NCBI GenBank assembly: GCA_016787575.1
Contig: JAEUUO010000032.1
Span: forward strand, 1-64,000
DNA length: 64,000 nt
Reading direction: 5' to 3'
Source of the DNA: Saprospiraceae bacterium
GTDB lineage: Bacteria; Bacteroidota; Bacteroidia; Chitinophagales; Saprospiraceae
Shown here one piece after another: positions 24,261-30,258 of this stretch. The notes beneath the pieces were generated by a model. It ran no database searches and had not been told where the DNA came from. It saw only the letters and a program-made list of their open reading frames with translations. Made by a program: the position numbers and the translations under genes. Every line of letters begins with the position of its first letter. Position 1 is the stretch's first letter.

Positions 24261-24641
24261 TTATTTAACTTTTGCCATTTTCATCAAGACCCAGGTCTCT
24301 AAAATGGTAAACAAGAGGTAGGAAGAGATCAGGGGCAAGACCAATTCTCTTGGTTTGATACCCAACACTTTAACTAGTATGATGACCAACATAGACAGTA
24401 ATACAATTTTCAGACTGATGCTGACCATAAATACCCGAGTAAATAGAAAAGGATTGGAAGAACGCACCGCTCGCTCTGAAATTTGAAATATTAGGCTGGT
24501 AAAAAAAACAAAAAAAGCTATTATCCCATAACTGGCATTGGCCACAAGTTGCGAAGGATCGGCTCCCGGTCCAAATAAACTGATTCCTAAACAGACTATT
24601 GCTGTGAGTACTAAAAAAATATAAAACCTGGCGACGCTCAT
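24261..24641 (-). CDS. Four-helix membrane protein, ATP-synthase-protein-I-like
   Basis: 126 residues with four hydrophobic segments (about 6-24, 33-52, 68-88 and 95-118). There is no family motif I can name with certainty; size, topology and position right after an AtpZ gene resemble the second small membrane protein (AtpI-like) that precedes atpB in many Bacteroidota. It overlaps AtpZ by 4 bases (ATGA, 24638-24641), so they are translationally coupled. Oddly, no F-type ATP synthase genes follow; rpsT comes next. Family placement is inference. Confidence 0.6.
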   Translation of the reverse strand: MSVARFYIFLVLTAIVCLGISLFGPGADPSQLVANASYGIIAFFVFFTSLIFQISERAVRSSNPFLFTRVFMVSISLKIVLLSMLVIILVKVLGIKPRELVLPLISSYLLFTILETWVLMKMAKVK

Positions 24642-24853
24642 TTATCGATTCTCTTAAGGTCATAATTTAACCAAACCATAAAAGCAATCAGCATAAACAT
24701 ACTGCACAATGCCGTCAAAATAGGTTTTTCCAATTGAAATTTACGATCTAAAAAACCACCAAACCAGGCTGCAAGTCCCATAGATACAAACAATTGCGTA
24801 GCAAGACCCGAATATTTTAGGATCTTATTGCTTTTTAGATCATACTTAGCCAT
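24638..24853 (-). CDS. AtpZ/AtpI family small membrane protein
   Basis: 71 residues with two transmembrane helices: LATQLFVSMGLAAWFGGFLD (about 17-36) and PILTALCSMFMLIAFMVWLNY (about 44-64). This two-helix hairpin with the AAWFGGFLDRKF stretch is the AtpZ/AtpI pattern. In other bacteria such proteins help assemble the F0 c-ring or move Mg/Ca. It lies 12 bases after the bactofilin gene and overlaps the next membrane gene. The usual downstream atpB-E-F-H-A-G cluster is absent from this window. Confidence 0.8.
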   Translation of the reverse strand: MAKYDLKSNKILKYSGLATQLFVSMGLAAWFGGFLDRKFQLEKPILTALCSMFMLIAFMVWLNYDLKRIDK

Positions 24854-24865
24854 GAATGCCTTGGC

Positions 24866-25303
24866 TTACATTTTAATCAGGTCCGGTTTTACCTGAGTCA
24901 TCGGATTGACTTTTGGTGAACCAGCTCCCATTTTACTGGTTACGTTAAATTTTGCTCCCGGGCTGACTGCCAATTTATCAGTATTTATTTCTCCGTCAAC
25001 GATAGCCGTTTCTTTAACCTGAAGCAAATCTTCGATTTGAACAATTCCCTTAAATCGGCCTTCAATGGTTGCATTTTGAGCTTTGATTTCACCTTCAATA
25101 CTACCTTTTGGTCCGATGATGACTTTTCCTTTGCAGACTAAAATGCCCTTTAGAAAACCATCAATTCGAATGTCACTTTCTGCTGTAATGGTTCCTTCAA
25201 CTTGGGTACCCACTACCAGACTGTTCAAAGCCCCCTGTGGTAAAGGTCCTACTGATGATTTACTTGCATCATTCGATGTGTTTTTATTCCCAAACATATC
25301 CAT
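24866..25303 (-). CDS. Bactofilin (polymer-forming cytoskeletal protein)
   Basis: 145 residues from the ATG at 25303. The core (about residues 30-120) is the right-handed beta-helix of bactofilins: repeated hydrophobic steps such as LVVGTQVEGTITAESDIRIDG, VIIGPKGSIEGEI and IVDGEINTDKLAVSPGA. Bactofilins polymerise without nucleotide into membrane-associated scaffolds for cell shape or envelope machines. A longer reading to 25417 exists, but a promoter box at 25320-25327 falls within it, so the shorter start is better. First gene of a three-gene operon with AtpZ. Confidence 0.88.
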   Translation of the reverse strand: MDMFGNKNTSNDASKSSVGPLPQGALNSLVVGTQVEGTITAESDIRIDGFLKGILVCKGKVIIGPKGSIEGEIKAQNATIEGRFKGIVQIEDLLQVKETAIVDGEINTDKLAVSPGAKFNVTSKMGAGSPKVNPMTQVKPDLIKM

Positions 25304-25319
25304 TGTTTTTGGTGGGAAA

Positions 25320-25327
25320 CAAAAATA
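25320..25327 (-). promoter_or_regulatory. Candidate -7 box (TATTTTTG) of the bactofilin operon
   Basis: The plus strand reads CAAAAATA, i.e. TATTTTTG on the minus strand, ending 16 bases before ATG 25303. It fixes the start of the bactofilin gene. Confidence 0.35.
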
Positions 25328-25664
25328 CGATTTAATTAAATAAATAAATGGAAAAATGGAGGATGGGAGTTCATAGTCTATAGTTTGGAAGAATGCTGCA
25401 TTCTTATAATTGTTCAATTCTCCAATGCATTAATCACTTCCCGCCTACCTGAACAATCCTATTCTGTATATTTAAAATTATCATGCAACTCAGTCAGGCT
25501 GATTGTGACAATGGATGGAAGCATGTCTATAGGCTTTGGTCAGGTGGAGAGGAAATGTTGTAATGGGTATATTGACCGCTAATTAGATGAATTTTACCAT
25601 CAATCAGTCTAACAGTCTAACAGTCTAAGCCAATAGTCTAAGCCCCTTTCGCCTGGTCTTCTTC
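25328..25664. other. 337-base gap between bactofilin promoter and PorP/SprF stop
   Basis: No recognisable gene. A 65-codon plus-strand reading (25385-25582) has no family resemblance and is rejected. The right end (25605-25642) holds three tandem CAGTCTAA octamers and a related ATAGTCTAA. Confidence 0.6.
25605..25642. repeat. Octamer repeat (CAGTCTAA) x3 plus a degenerate copy
   Basis: CAGTCTAA occurs at 25605, 25613 and 25621 without gaps, then ATAGTCTAA at 25634. The reverse complement, TTAGACTG, is the unit of the array at 45216-45280. It lies 22 bases from the PorP/SprF stop. Confidence 0.85.
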
Positions 25665-26732
25665 TTAGAAATTCGGACAGTAGATTCCTCGGCGTTCTGG
25701 TCCGCAGATATTGTAGATGAATGACAATTCAAATGAATTGTTTCCTGCATTAGCTTTCTTCAAGGAAGAGGTATTGATATCGTAACTCAATCCGAAACCG
25801 TATTTGCTATAATCAAATCGGGAAGAAAGAATGAGTGCATCCATATGAATTCCGGATGAATTATCTGTTTTGTATTTGTTGGCCAAACGTGCCCACATTC
25901 CTAATTGGAATGTAGCTTCATTGGTACGACTATTGCCGGATCCAAATCGGAAACTTGTACCTCCGTTTAATTGAAAAGAGGGTCCTTGAAAAAAAGCAAC
26001 CATGCCCGGAACAATTGCATTGCGGCGGTTTAATCTGAATACACCTCCACCGTGAACGGTTAATTTAGAATATAATGGTGCCGGAACATACCCATTATTC
26101 GGGATGTCAGTTATGTTGTTTTGCAATGGTTCGTTTAAGTGACTGTAAGCACCTCCTATGTAAAAGTTGTTGTATTTATCCAATACAGAAAACCACAATG
26201 CCCCAACAGATACATCTGCAAACAAAAAGCTTGGATCAAATACTGCTGGATCTTTTTGACCATTTGGATCTACCCCATTCGAAGTAATCTGAGTACCCCA
26301 GATGGCATTGTGAAATTTAACACCGCGTTGGTTTAAACCAGCTTCTGCACCAAAAACTAAATAATTGGAAGAGGTTCTACTACCTGACATTCGCTTACTG
26401 TAAGATCCGGAAAGTTTAAATTGCAAGGTACTGAAATCCAATGATCCAGCTTTGTCACCCCAGAATGTGCCTCCAAATCCAAAATAATCATAACGACCTA
26501 CTGGAATTTTTTGGTCGAAAGACATGTTATAAGTATTGAATGAGTTTGCAAAACCGATTACTGGTGCCCACTGGTTGCGGTAATTAGCTACAAACCGCAT
26601 TTTACAATTCATAACCCCCGTTAATGCAGGATTTAAATTGGTTGGGGACATGTAAAACTGAGAAAAATGAATGTCTTGTGCCTGGATTCCCCAGCTCAAA
26701 ACGATTGAGAAAAGAATAGCTAAACGCTTCAT
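25665..26732 (-). CDS. PorP/SprF family type IX secretion system outer-membrane protein
   Basis: 355 residues from the ATG at 26732, where a clean signal peptide begins (MKRLAILFSIVLSWGIQAQ); an in-frame extension to 26807 would put 25 unlikely residues before it. The mature start, DIHFSQFYMSPTNLNPALTGV, is the hallmark of the PorP/SprF family: outer-membrane beta-barrels that work with T9SS in secretion of SprB-like adhesins and gliding. The C-terminus alternates as a barrel (GFGLSYDINTSSLKKA...FELSFIYN). It is monocistronic here, not beside porKLMN, as is common for the many PorP paralogues in Saprospiraceae. Confidence 0.92.
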   Translation of the reverse strand: MKRLAILFSIVLSWGIQAQDIHFSQFYMSPTNLNPALTGVMNCKMRFVANYRNQWAPVIGFANSFNTYNMSFDQKIPVGRYDYFGFGGTFWGDKAGSLDFSTLQFKLSGSYSKRMSGSRTSSNYLVFGAEAGLNQRGVKFHNAIWGTQITSNGVDPNGQKDPAVFDPSFLFADVSVGALWFSVLDKYNNFYIGGAYSHLNEPLQNNITDIPNNGYVPAPLYSKLTVHGGGVFRLNRRNAIVPGMVAFFQGPSFQLNGGTSFRFGSGNSRTNEATFQLGMWARLANKYKTDNSSGIHMDALILSSRFDYSKYGFGLSYDINTSSLKKANAGNNSFELSFIYNICGPERRGIYCPNF

Positions 26733-26834
26733 GCCTACTACTTTATAAGTGCATAAATTTATGACCTTTCCCTCAAATAATATTCCCATTTGCTTAAAAT
26801 TTAACAAATATTAAAAAAAACAATGTTTAATCCC

Positions 26835-27914
26835 TTAATCCACACGAGTTATAGCTCCAAAATTCTTTATCAGTAAATCATCGTATGCATTGGCTTTTTC
26901 AAATAAATATTGGAAAATCTGACTGCCCAATTCCGGTTTGAATGAGTGATCAAATATTTGCAATGAAAGAATGATGTCTTGATTCTGAATACTAAAACAT
27001 AGACCCTCTAACTGGCTATTCTGCTGCAACAGATAGACGTAAATTTCCTTAATATTTTCTTTGGGCAGCGAACAAATATAAGCATCTCCTGCAATCATTC
27101 CTGTTTCTTCGTGGTAAGAAAGTAAGATTTTAGCGGAACCATGTTCTATTTCCCAATTAAAAGGGCCTCTGCGGGTCAGATTGATATCATAATTAAGAGC
27201 TTTTAATGCATCTTCAATTTCCAATTTGATTCCTTTAGGTTGATAATCTTCTATTTGCGATATCATTTGAATTTTAGACCCACAAAAAGGACAGTATTTT
27301 TTTTCCGGATTAGGTTCAAACACAATGTTGGCGCACGAAATGCAACGGACACCAGATTTGTCACCACCCGCTTTAAATTCATCCAATGCTTGTTTTAGAT
27401 ATCTGGCTGGAAGGGAAAATCCAATGCTTTGGCCATTTTGAATGATAAAAGTATTTACACCTAAAATTTCTCCGGCATCATTTACTAAAGGACCTCCACT
27501 GTTTCCGGGATTCAGAGCTGCATCGTGCTGGATATAGTATAAATCATCCTGTTGGTGGCTTGAATTCGAAATAATGCCTTGTGTTGCTGTATATTTTAGT
27601 CCAAACGGATGGCCAACTGCTATAACAGGATCTCCTTCTCTAAAATCTTCCTGATCGTGCAATTTAACACCCATCCATGGATTTGGTTTCGGGCCTTGTA
27701 CAAAAGCCAAATCAAACTTAGGATCTAAATAACGAACCGAACTCAGTACGCGTTGTACCCCTTTTCCTTCAACGACTACATCTTTGTTGTTGCGAACCAC
27801 GTGTTCATTGGTAATAATCAAATCATAGTCTTTCAGGTAAAATCCGGTCCCTATTGAAAATGGTGTTGCAATTTGTATGACAACCCCTTTGTATTGTTCG
27901 ATTAACTCTCTCAT
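26835..27914 (-). CDS. Cytosolic trypsin-like serine protease with zinc ribbon and YbjN/CesT-like tail
   Basis: 359 residues, no signal peptide. The first 180 residues are a compact S1C (HtrA/Deg-type) protease with all three catalytic residues: H38 (TNEHVV), D68 (KFDLAF) and S139 (NPGNSGGP). No PDZ domain follows. Instead there is a zinc ribbon with C191-x2-C194 and C208-x2-C211, and then a domain of about 135 residues (220-359) of mixed alpha/beta character (AYICSLPKENIKEIYVYLL...GLCFSIQNQDIILSLQIF) that looks like the YbjN/type III chaperone fold. The start overlaps the upstream gene by ATGA, so the two are coupled. Substrate unknown; it acts inside the cell (inferred). Confidence 0.85.
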   Translation of the reverse strand: MRELIEQYKGVVIQIATPFSIGTGFYLKDYDLIITNEHVVRNNKDVVVEGKGVQRVLSSVRYLDPKFDLAFVQGPKPNPWMGVKLHDQEDFREGDPVIAVGHPFGLKYTATQGIISNSSHQQDDLYYIQHDAALNPGNSGGPLVNDAGEILGVNTFIIQNGQSIGFSLPARYLKQALDEFKAGGDKSGVRCISCANIVFEPNPEKKYCPFCGSKIQMISQIEDYQPKGIKLEIEDALKALNYDINLTRRGPFNWEIEHGSAKILLSYHEETGMIAGDAYICSLPKENIKEIYVYLLQQNSQLEGLCFSIQNQDIILSLQIFDHSFKPELGSQIFQYLFEKANAYDDLLIKNFGAITRVD

Positions 27915-29212
27915 GCCAGGGGTAAATCTTTTATAAATACCAAAAATTCTTTTAGAAAAATGCCTGGATTCAAATCTTTAAACTTAGCTTTTGGAACTTC
28001 CTCTGTAAACGCGGTTGGAAATTTATCCAGGATTGTTTCTATTTCATCATTTATTTCATTGAAGTTGAGCGATCCATCCGACTTCCAATAGTTCAATGGA
28101 AAACCAAGCGATTTGAAATAAGCATCGTAAGCAATTTCAAAATAAAGATGAAACAGGCTGCGTCCCGGTTCAGGCATCGCAAAATTGTACATGCAATAGC
28201 CTGCTATGTAATTGCAAATAGCCAGACAAATCCGATCGTGTTTATTTTCTTCATACCATTTTATGGCTTGCAGTTCGGCATCGATAAATTGCGCAATTGT
28301 TGCATGTTTTACAGGACTGGTAATTCCAAAACTTGCAATAACTTCATACAATTCTTTTTCAAGGTCAGCGTCTTTCATTTCCAGAATTTCTTTTAAACCT
28401 GTTTCCAAAATAGACACTTTTAATTCTGTATTTTCCGGAGCTGTTTCAAAATAACGAATGTGCATTGTACTCAGGATATCCATTAGTTTGCCTTCCGGTT
28501 TTACCAAATAATCCAGCCCATAAACCACTGCTAAATAAACGTAAGTCAGCGCACCTTGAAATCGCCTTGGGTTGAGGCTTCCCAATACTTCCGGCTTAAA
28601 AACATGTTCTATTTGATTGCGGATGAATTTAATTTTAACTGCTCTGAGCTCCGGACTCAATAATTTTATATGTTGATTTTGAATTGGTTCAAGGTATTCA
28701 AACTCATCCAATAAAATATCATCATCTTTATCAGCTTGCAATGCCAATTCTTTTAATCCATAATACAATTTATAAGGTGAGGCATCTGCCAATAAACTGT
28801 CAAAAATCAAACACAAATTATCATTGGCATCTAAAGCAAATCGGGCATAGTTCAACCGATAATTGTGCTCGACGGCTTTTCTTAAAAATCCAACATTGAG
28901 TTCCTTGCAATGTGCAACCAAACAGACGGCTTTAAAAATCCGGTCGTCATAGTTGCAATGTATTTGTTTAGAACCCTGATACAAGATGAATGTATTTTCT
29001 TGTTCACGTATTACATTATCCCCAGACTGGTTTTTAATATAGTTTAAAAGATGTTTGATGGCTTCTTTGCAGTTGCCTTCCTCAAAAAGTTTTAAACTGG
29101 CATCCCAATCCGCATATTGTTCTTTAGATTTATAGGCATCTGAAAACCGTCCGAATGAAATTTCAGGTAAGGTGGTTTGTGGTCTTGACAAAATTTTATC
29201 CCAGAATCCCAT
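27911..29212 (-). CDS. Uncharacterised partner of the trypsin-like protease (YbjN/CesT-like segment plus helical region)
   Basis: 433 residues, no signal peptide or membrane segment. I do not recognise a named family. Residues about 70-145 (FILYQGSKQIHC ... NYRLNYARFALDANDNLCLIFDSLLADASPYKLYYGLKELA) read like the YbjN/CesT-like fold and echo the C-terminal domain of the next gene's protease. The remainder (about 150-433) is mostly helical. The stop overlaps the protease start by ATGA (27911-27914), indicating equimolar, coupled production and probably a physical complex. A promoter box lies 17 bases upstream. Function unknown. Confidence 0.75.
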   Translation of the reverse strand: MGFWDKILSRPQTTLPEISFGRFSDAYKSKEQYADWDASLKLFEEGNCKEAIKHLLNYIKNQSGDNVIREQENTFILYQGSKQIHCNYDDRIFKAVCLVAHCKELNVGFLRKAVEHNYRLNYARFALDANDNLCLIFDSLLADASPYKLYYGLKELALQADKDDDILLDEFEYLEPIQNQHIKLLSPELRAVKIKFIRNQIEHVFKPEVLGSLNPRRFQGALTYVYLAVVYGLDYLVKPEGKLMDILSTMHIRYFETAPENTELKVSILETGLKEILEMKDADLEKELYEVIASFGITSPVKHATIAQFIDAELQAIKWYEENKHDRICLAICNYIAGYCMYNFAMPEPGRSLFHLYFEIAYDAYFKSLGFPLNYWKSDGSLNFNEINDEIETILDKFPTAFTEEVPKAKFKDLNPGIFLKEFLVFIKDLPLA

Positions 29213-29229
29213 AAAATTTTTAAGAGGCT

Positions 29230-29237
29230 CAAAGGTA
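29230..29237 (-). promoter_or_regulatory. Candidate -7 box (TACCTTTG) of the partner-protease operon
   Basis: The plus strand reads CAAAGGTA, i.e. TACCTTTG on the minus strand, ending 17 bases before the ATG at 29212. It is divergent from the GSCFA gene's box at 29292. Confidence 0.4.
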
Positions 29238-29291
29238 ATGATCCAGCATCTTTAATTTTGAATAAAAAATCGGGTATAAGGCAAAGCCCTT

Positions 29292-29299
29292 TACTTTTG
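29292..29299 (+). promoter_or_regulatory. Candidate -7 box (TACTTTTG) of the GSCFA gene
   Basis: TACTTTTG matches TAnnTTTG and ends 8 bases before ATG 29308. With initiation 6-8 bases after the box, the mRNA would have almost no leader. No well-spaced -33 TTG is seen. Confidence 0.4.
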
Positions 29300-29307
29300 C
29301 ATTTAAT

Positions 29308-30258
29308 ATGTATGCAAAAACCTCCTTTCCCGCATTTGAAAGTCATCATAAGATATGTCACAAAGATTTAATTTATAGTTGTGGAAGTTGTTTTGCAAGT
29401 GAAATGGCAGATCGTTTGGAATTGCTCCGTTTTCAAATTGCAAGGCATGCTTATGGCATCGTGTACAATCCTTTAAGCATTGCTCAACAATTTGATCAAC
29501 TGTTGACTCAAAAAGAATTTCATGAATCTGATTTTTTGATTCAGGATGGGCTTTATCATTCTATGGATCATCATGGATCCTTGTCATTGCCAGATAAAAC
29601 ACAATTAGCTGATCAACTGAATGCCCGTTCCAAAGAAGCTTATGCACATCTAAAAAAATCAAGCTTTCTGGTTCTTACTCTGGGATCCTCTTATTTTTTT
29701 CGTTTGAAATCCAATCAACAAATTGTTTCAAATTGCCATAAAATTTCTGCCAGTCAGTTTACCAAAACAATTGCTTCGCTTGATGAAATTAATACGTGTT
29801 TAAGTCAAACTGTCAGGCAATTATTAAATTTCAATCCAAGTTTGCAAATTCTATTAAGTGTCAGTCCGGTGCGCTATTTAAAAGAAGGATTTATTGAAAA
29901 TCAGCGAAGCAAATCCAGATTGTTGCTAGCATGTGAACAGCTTTGCGATCAATTCAATGCTTGCTCTTACATACCTGTTTATGAAATTTTTATGGATGAC
30001 CTGAGGGATTATCGTTATGTAAAGGACGATTTGGTTCATCCCAATTCATCTGCAATAGATTATATCTTTAACTATTTTGAAAATGCTTATTTTAATAAGT
30101 CCACCAAGGAATTGACCATTAAAATAAAGAAGTGGAATCAACTTTCCAATCACCGGGTAATGCATGCAAACTCAGAAACCATTTCAGAGTATCAGATCAA
30201 ATTGGAACAGTTAAATGCAGAAATTGAAAAAGAATTAAACCATTTTAAAGAAAAATAA
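29308..30258 (+). CDS. GSCFA domain-containing protein (SGNH-hydrolase-like)
   Basis: 316 residues. Near the N-terminus, LIYSCGSCFASEMADRL carries the GSCFA motif that names the family, with the candidate nucleophile Ser. GIVYNPLSIAQQF and LTLGSSYFFR follow as in relatives, then LLSVSPVRYLKEGF and the C-terminal DLVHPNSSAIDYIF, which would supply the Asp/His of an SGNH-type triad (D and H in DxxH style). Substrate is unknown; the fold suggests a small esterase or acyl hydrolase. No signal peptide. The gene is monocistronic with a possible leaderless promoter. Confidence 0.9.
   Translation: MYAKTSFPAFESHHKICHKDLIYSCGSCFASEMADRLELLRFQIARHAYGIVYNPLSIAQQFDQLLTQKEFHESDFLIQDGLYHSMDHHGSLSLPDKTQLADQLNARSKEAYAHLKKSSFLVLTLGSSYFFRLKSNQQIVSNCHKISASQFTKTIASLDEINTCLSQTVRQLLNFNPSLQILLSVSPVRYLKEGFIENQRSKSRLLLACEQLCDQFNACSYIPVYEIFMDDLRDYRYVKDDLVHPNSSAIDYIFNYFENAYFNKSTKELTIKIKKWNQLSNHRVMHANSETISEYQIKLEQLNAEIEKELNHFKEK

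Follow-up and report, generated by a model that had tools for sequence, protein, structure and literature searches.

What would an HtrA-type protease do if it carried no PDZ domain, stayed inside the cell and came with a separate partner protein? HtrA proteases are the textbook case of quality control that works without ATP and outside the cytosol; proteases of the HtrA/Deg group form trimer-based oligomers, bear an export signal or a membrane anchor, and possess one or more C-terminal PDZ domains, which select the substrates. The question is raised by two adjacent genes of a Saprospiraceae bacterium, located in a stretch of 64,000 nucleotides (hereafter, the window) that is part of a genome of 3.57 Mb; its closest relatives with names are MAGs of Saprospiraceae and other Bacteroidota.

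The P2-P1 gene pair

The two genes, named here P2 and P1, and the features of their products are listed in Table 1; P2 is the gene which the sequence-only reading of the window counted as first (27911-29212). Both open reading frames were found on the minus strand, at the coordinates which that reading gives and with the ATGA overlap that it had noticed. The overlap of -4 recurs in L058-L061, L121, L014 and L025, and a promoter and terminator scan gave nothing informative.

Table 1. Features of the P2-P1 locus, with positions in the window and the basis of each assignment.
Feature	Position	Strand	Description	Basis
P2	27911..29212	(-)	upstream gene; partner protein of 433 aa, in which a short N-terminal segment is followed by a YbjN/type III chaperone-like domain and then by a helical C-terminal half	ORF, AF2 model
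P1	26835..27914	(-)	downstream gene; protein of 359 aa with a trypsin-like protease domain, then a zinc ribbon and then a chaperone-like tail	ORF, Pfam, AF2 model
ATGA overlap	27911..27914	(-)	P2 stop/P1 start	sequence
P2 residues 41-178	28679..29092	(-)	predicted TY-chaperone (YbjN/CesT-like) domain	VIA structural matches; Foldseek
P2 residues 179-433	27914..28678	(-)	helical half, without family or fold assignment	AF2 helices, pLDDT mostly 76-96
P1 residues 1-184	27363..27914	(-)	HtrA-like protease domain	Z 24.0 to HtrA1 6z0x over 180 residues
P1 His38 codon	27801..27803	(-)	catalytic	alignment of P1 relatives
P1 Asp68 codon	27711..27713	(-)	catalytic	alignment of P1 relatives
P1 Ser139 codon	27498..27500	(-)	catalytic	alignment of P1 relatives
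P1 C191/C194/C208/C211	27282..27344	(-)	zinc-ribbon-like segment	Cys4 in 95/95 relatives; weak zinc-ribbon Pfam matches
P1 residues 223-359	26838..27248	(-)	YbjN/CesT-like tail, homologous to P2 41-178	hhalign 98.3%; same helix/strand order

An HtrA-like protease without a detected export signal

The H38/D68/S139 triad of P1 is intact and lies within the HtrA-like motif DAALNPGNSGGP, and Trypsin_2 is the Pfam match of the protein (E 2.7e-27). Single-chain AF2 models, built on alignments of the window proteins with the fetched relatives, had pLDDT 86 for P1 and 87 for P2. Residues 1-187 of the P1 model superimposed on HtrA1 with a structural Z of 24.0 and an rmsd of 2.1 A over 180 residues, and the matches listed by Foldseek and VIA for this model comprised proteases only. 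The full S1C triad reported from the sequence is thereby confirmed.

No PDZ domain was found in P1 by Pfam at E up to 10, nor by NCBIfam, in which the scores of P1 fell far under the DegP/HtrA cut-offs. The maximum of N-terminal hydropathy was 1.41 in P1 versus 2.75 and 2.16 in two further proteins of HtrA type that this genome encodes, and among 33 P1 proteins the hydropathy test, which is not a signal-peptide predictor, revealed no strongly hydrophobic N-terminal stretch. The low N-terminal hydropathy and the lack of a PDZ match agree with the initial description of a protease devoid of signal peptide and PDZ domain. Since no signal sequence was detected, P1 is presumably located in the cytosol.

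The four-cysteine ribbon and alpha/beta tail proposed to follow the protease domain were recovered as well. The cysteines C191, C194, C208 and C211 are invariant in all 95 P1 relatives, and zinc-ribbon matches in Pfam, though weak, occur in every P1 member scanned. The tail, which gives a faint TY-Chap1 match in Pfam, is modelled by AF2 as a helix, three strands, a helix, two strands and a helix, and profile homology (see below) together with this secondary structure assigns it by homology to the YbjN/CesT-type fold.

A chaperone-like domain shared by both proteins

P2 has no family match in Pfam or PADLOC and none that counts in NCBIfam. Sequence searches of solved structures with the P1 tail or P2 returned chance-level matches only, and nothing in a viral structure library matched P2 at E below 0.001. 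The model of residues 41-178 was matched by VIA to 2plg (Z 14.3), ExsC (12.8), YbjN and DR1245 (10.4 each); other type III chaperones were also among the matches, unrelated rows stood at Z 5 or below, and 1xkp (SycN-YscB) was found among the structural matches of the domain. Its predicted fold is alpha-beta3-alpha-beta2-alpha, the same order of elements as in the P1 tail. The N-terminal segment that precedes this domain in P2 has low confidence in the model and is perhaps flexible. Type III chaperones bind their clients at unfolded stretches. They wrap the client chain, and proteins of the YbjN fold form dimers (PMC5398634). DR1245, a protein of the YbjN fold, binds DdrB (PMC3575483), and the TY-Chap proteins take their definition from ADP-ribose systems (PMC9503650).

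Profile comparison with 9-10 sequences aligned P1 239-354 to P2 62-176 with 93.5% probability (E 2.3e-7), and hhalign with 33 sequences of each protein raised the match between the P1 tail and the P2 domain to 98.3% (E 2.4e-14); in the controls, reversed alignments gave 0.3-0.6% and other parts of both proteins 1.0% or less. Stand-alone relatives from the phylum match the P1 tail and the P2 domain at 98.6% and 97.9%, respectively, and two of the three scanned exceed the Pfam TY-Chap1 cut-off. Members of the pair itself, where scores were given, stay below the Pfam gathering thresholds, the best being 23.4 against the cut-off of 27 for TY-Chap1 (PF22551); this test covered TY-Chap1 PF22551, CesT_Tir_1 PF22550 and YbjN PF10722, the other aligned P1/P2 members being scored by E-value only. 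Because the profiles align, the stand-alone relatives match both proteins and two of these relatives pass the TY-Chap1 cut-off, the predicted domains of P1 and P2 clearly belong to the YbjN/CesT superfamily. The sequence-only reading had noticed in its first protein a segment (about 70-145) resembling the P1 tail. The likeness proved stronger than supposed, with homology covering P2 62-176 and the fold P2 41-178, and the opposite outcome, unrelated folds in the two segments, did not occur (hhalign 98.3%, E 2.4e-14).

In phylogenetic trees, the P1-tail clade and the P2-domain clade each split early from the same f20 lineage, which fits an ancient pairing, and the P1 and P2 distances correlate (r 0.74). 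Small stand-alone proteins of the YbjN/TY-Chap1 type (L087-L091, L113, L114; about 146-173 aa) are encoded elsewhere in the phylum, away from the pair.

Co-inheritance of P1 and P2

Of 392 genomes sampled across the phylum, 17 contain both proteins and 375 neither, with none containing P2 only or P1 only (P2 matches at E below 1e-40, P1-tail matches at E below 1e-15); the genes are neighbours in 15 of the 17 carriers. In the order, P2 homologues occur in 116 of 298 genomes: 114 genomes have both proteins, two P2 only (G859, G023), one P1 only (G920) and 181 neither, and assembly gaps may account for the three exceptions. The latter counts exclude weak matches and stand-alone YbjN-like proteins, and the corresponding Fisher p of 1e-79 is inflated by kinship. 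A search of Bacillota, run without a positive control there, found P2 in none of 299 genomes. Wherever linkage was checked (33/33 linked loci), P2 precedes P1 on the same strand, more regularly than chance would give, with gaps of -17 to +326, many of them between -4 and +12. The pair is thus conserved across Bacteroidota, as had been predicted, and a lack of conservation in other genomes, the outcome that would have spoken against it, was not observed.

In about 40 genomes, almost all of them from the window's family, P1 and P2 are both present but lie at a distance from each other; linkage alone, therefore, does not explain their co-retention. A single genome (L179:2614-4971 in G785:C236) contains a frame of 786 aa, in which an enzyme resembling threonine aldolase (identified by eye) is fused in frame to P2, with an intact P1 adjoining.

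Decay and loss of the protease

The active site of P1 is degenerate in 21 of 95 copies, that is, any of H38, D68, G137, S139 and G140 is not kept, and the ribbon and tail persist in all these copies. On the tail tree this corresponds to about five changes, 17 of the 21 cases forming one clade; the serine and the histidine remain in some of the degenerate proteins, which may therefore have kept their activity. Moreover, in G800, G809, G795 and G949 the frame directly after P2 (139-155 codons) encodes a bare tail without protease or ribbon, which amounts to about two changes, on long branches. G795 and G949 hold further full-length P1 copies, and none other was found in G800 and G809. The P1 survey used the tail as its query, so tail-less proteases of the P1 family lie outside these counts.

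Two observations accompany this pattern. Each of G795 and G949 possesses three P2 copies: the bare tail goes with one of them, and the other two, which are of a divergent type, are accompanied by a full-length P1 frame. In the 17-genome clade (L135-L172; genus g7 and others) degenerate P1 coincides with a gene located at a distance from P2, as though one of these events had come before the other; a general rule connecting unlinked genes with a degenerate protease (p 5e-7) is not claimed, since the association comes mostly from this one clade.

As far as can be judged from the sequences, the two putative chaperone domains are the conserved core, and the protease is a removable effector. The 'regulated intracellular protease complex' suggested at first hence fits the pair of the window, but it does not describe the conserved core: the protease, which lost key catalytic-site residues about five times and was deleted about twice, is not a constant part, while the tail and P2 stay.

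Proposed function of the pair

We suppose that the chaperone domains of P1 and P2 pair as a client-binding hetero-complex presenting or regulating substrates for the tethered protease, a reading to which we give an even chance. P1 and P2 would be obligate partners, with residues 223-359 of P1 most likely pairing with residues 41-178 of P2, by analogy with the heterodimeric chaperones of type III secretion. The paired domains would make up a cytosolic platform that binds clients independently of ATP, and the helical half of P2 might lend it specificity for clients or for regulation. When the protease is intact, as in the window, the ribbon and the HtrA-type domain tethered to the P1 tail would cleave or process what the platform holds, and the chaperone domain would occupy the place of the PDZ domains in other HtrAs; where the protease of a lineage is degenerate or missing, the platform would be a binder only. 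The domain homology does not by itself prove mutual pairing, being compatible also with the P1 tail and P2 each forming homodimers. Going further, the pair may represent a new ATP-independent cytosolic chaperone-protease, in which a two-gene heterodimer picks up clients, unfolded or specific, and hands them over to the tethered HtrA protease, and from which evolution repeatedly drops the protease, keeping a pure chaperone; we consider this possible, though short of an even chance.

The position of P2 just before P1, with the ATGA overlap in several genomes, and the occurrence of P1 without P2 in only one of 115 carriers of the order would also suit a dedicated inhibitor or chaperone of P1, capping the tail and keeping the protease off (or folding it) in the manner of an antitoxin or immunity protein, and releasing it under stress. 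This explanation seems unlikely, however, because P2 is kept with degenerate P1, in the 17-genome clade and others, and with bare tails, which need no inhibitor. P1 might otherwise act in the cytosol as a stress protease of a general kind, to which P2 is accessory as a holdase, the chaperone domains being unpaired and each a homodimer, as is known for YbjN-fold proteins (PMC5398634); the persistence of both genes when unlinked accords with this, but the near-perfect mutual dependence and the bare tail kept beside P2 point to partnership and make it quite improbable. Finally, P2 could be the main substrate of P1, cleavage freeing its helical half or its N-terminal segment as a signal. The tight co-occurrence and the low-confidence, possibly flexible N-terminal segment are in line with such a role, which we regard as very doubtful, as it is weakened by the same retention of P2 where no working protease seems left.

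Gene neighbourhood and the question of a conflict system

The genes around the pair change between lineages and are ordinary ones (dnaN, alcohol dehydrogenase, TonB receptor, etc.). Within the window (24261-30258), the order is GSCFA-like (divergent), P2, P1, PorP/SprF-like, bactofilin-like and AtpI-like, with names assigned by eye; close relatives keep it, and it has disappeared from more distant carriers. The pair lies beside a divergently transcribed dnaN, encoding the DNA polymerase III beta clamp, in another family of the order (L121:7294-8409, L122, L123). A full-length P1 relative is carried by the 602-kb Bernardetia plasmid NZ_CP147018.1 (L134, 6001-7080), where it is annotated only as a trypsin-like peptidase domain-containing protein. 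The PADLOC matches of P1 to an RT-Protease system reflect the shared protease domain only, and this assignment was rejected.

P2 was found neither in PADLOC or PHROGs nor in the plasmids and phages searched. No MoxR, vWA or VMAP genes were present among the neighbours examined, P2 matched neither Trypco1 nor Trypco2, and ten neighbours scanned from divergent loci, which represent part of the loci, included no ARG, Macro or NADAR genes. Trypsin-linked systems of multicellular prokaryotes are known to include trypsin-like effectors and chaperone components (PMC7159879), and some ADP-ribose-linked conflict systems contain TY-Chap families (PMC9503650), but the ordinary neighbours, the synteny conserved among close relatives, the presence of the pair in most sampled genomes of the window's family, the lack of MoxR, vWA and VMAP among the neighbours examined, and the above searches with P2 make it highly improbable that the pair serves in defence or conflict and has the protease as its effector; a conflict role had been entertained from the sequence.

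Relation to known systems

With HtrA/Deg proteases (MEROPS S1C; DegP, DegQ, DegS, HTRA1) P1 shares the protease fold, the triad and the GNSGGP-type active-site motif; it differs in having no detected signal peptide or PDZ domain, in the ribbon and YbjN-like tail found instead, and in an apparently obligate separate partner. The fold of the YbjN/TY-Chap1/CesT superfamily is predicted in the P2 domain and, by homology, in the P1 tail; unlike in that superfamily, the domain is part of a fusion, in P1 with a protease and in P2 with a helical half. SycN-YscB, which binds YopN, offers a precedent for two homologous chaperone-fold chains acting as one client binder, whereas here one partner carries a protease and no secretion system is seen beside the pair. 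The Trypsin-Trypco and VMAP/MoxR-vWA conflict systems likewise combine a trypsin-like peptidase with a co-occurring neighbour gene (PMC7159879), but their partners belong to different families. We found no published description of the P1/P2 pair in the literature searched, mostly open-access. The parts are thus known folds, and their arrangement matches no family model or paper that we found.

Taken together, these results describe an HtrA-type protease without a detected export signal, with a predicted YbjN/type III chaperone domain in the place of PDZ, which is co-inherited with a protein of the same domain. For the YbjN fold, which is poorly understood, the pair provides a concrete candidate partner and a role that can be tested, and the key mutants already exist in nature, namely dead-protease and protease-less versions that retain the putative chaperone pair.
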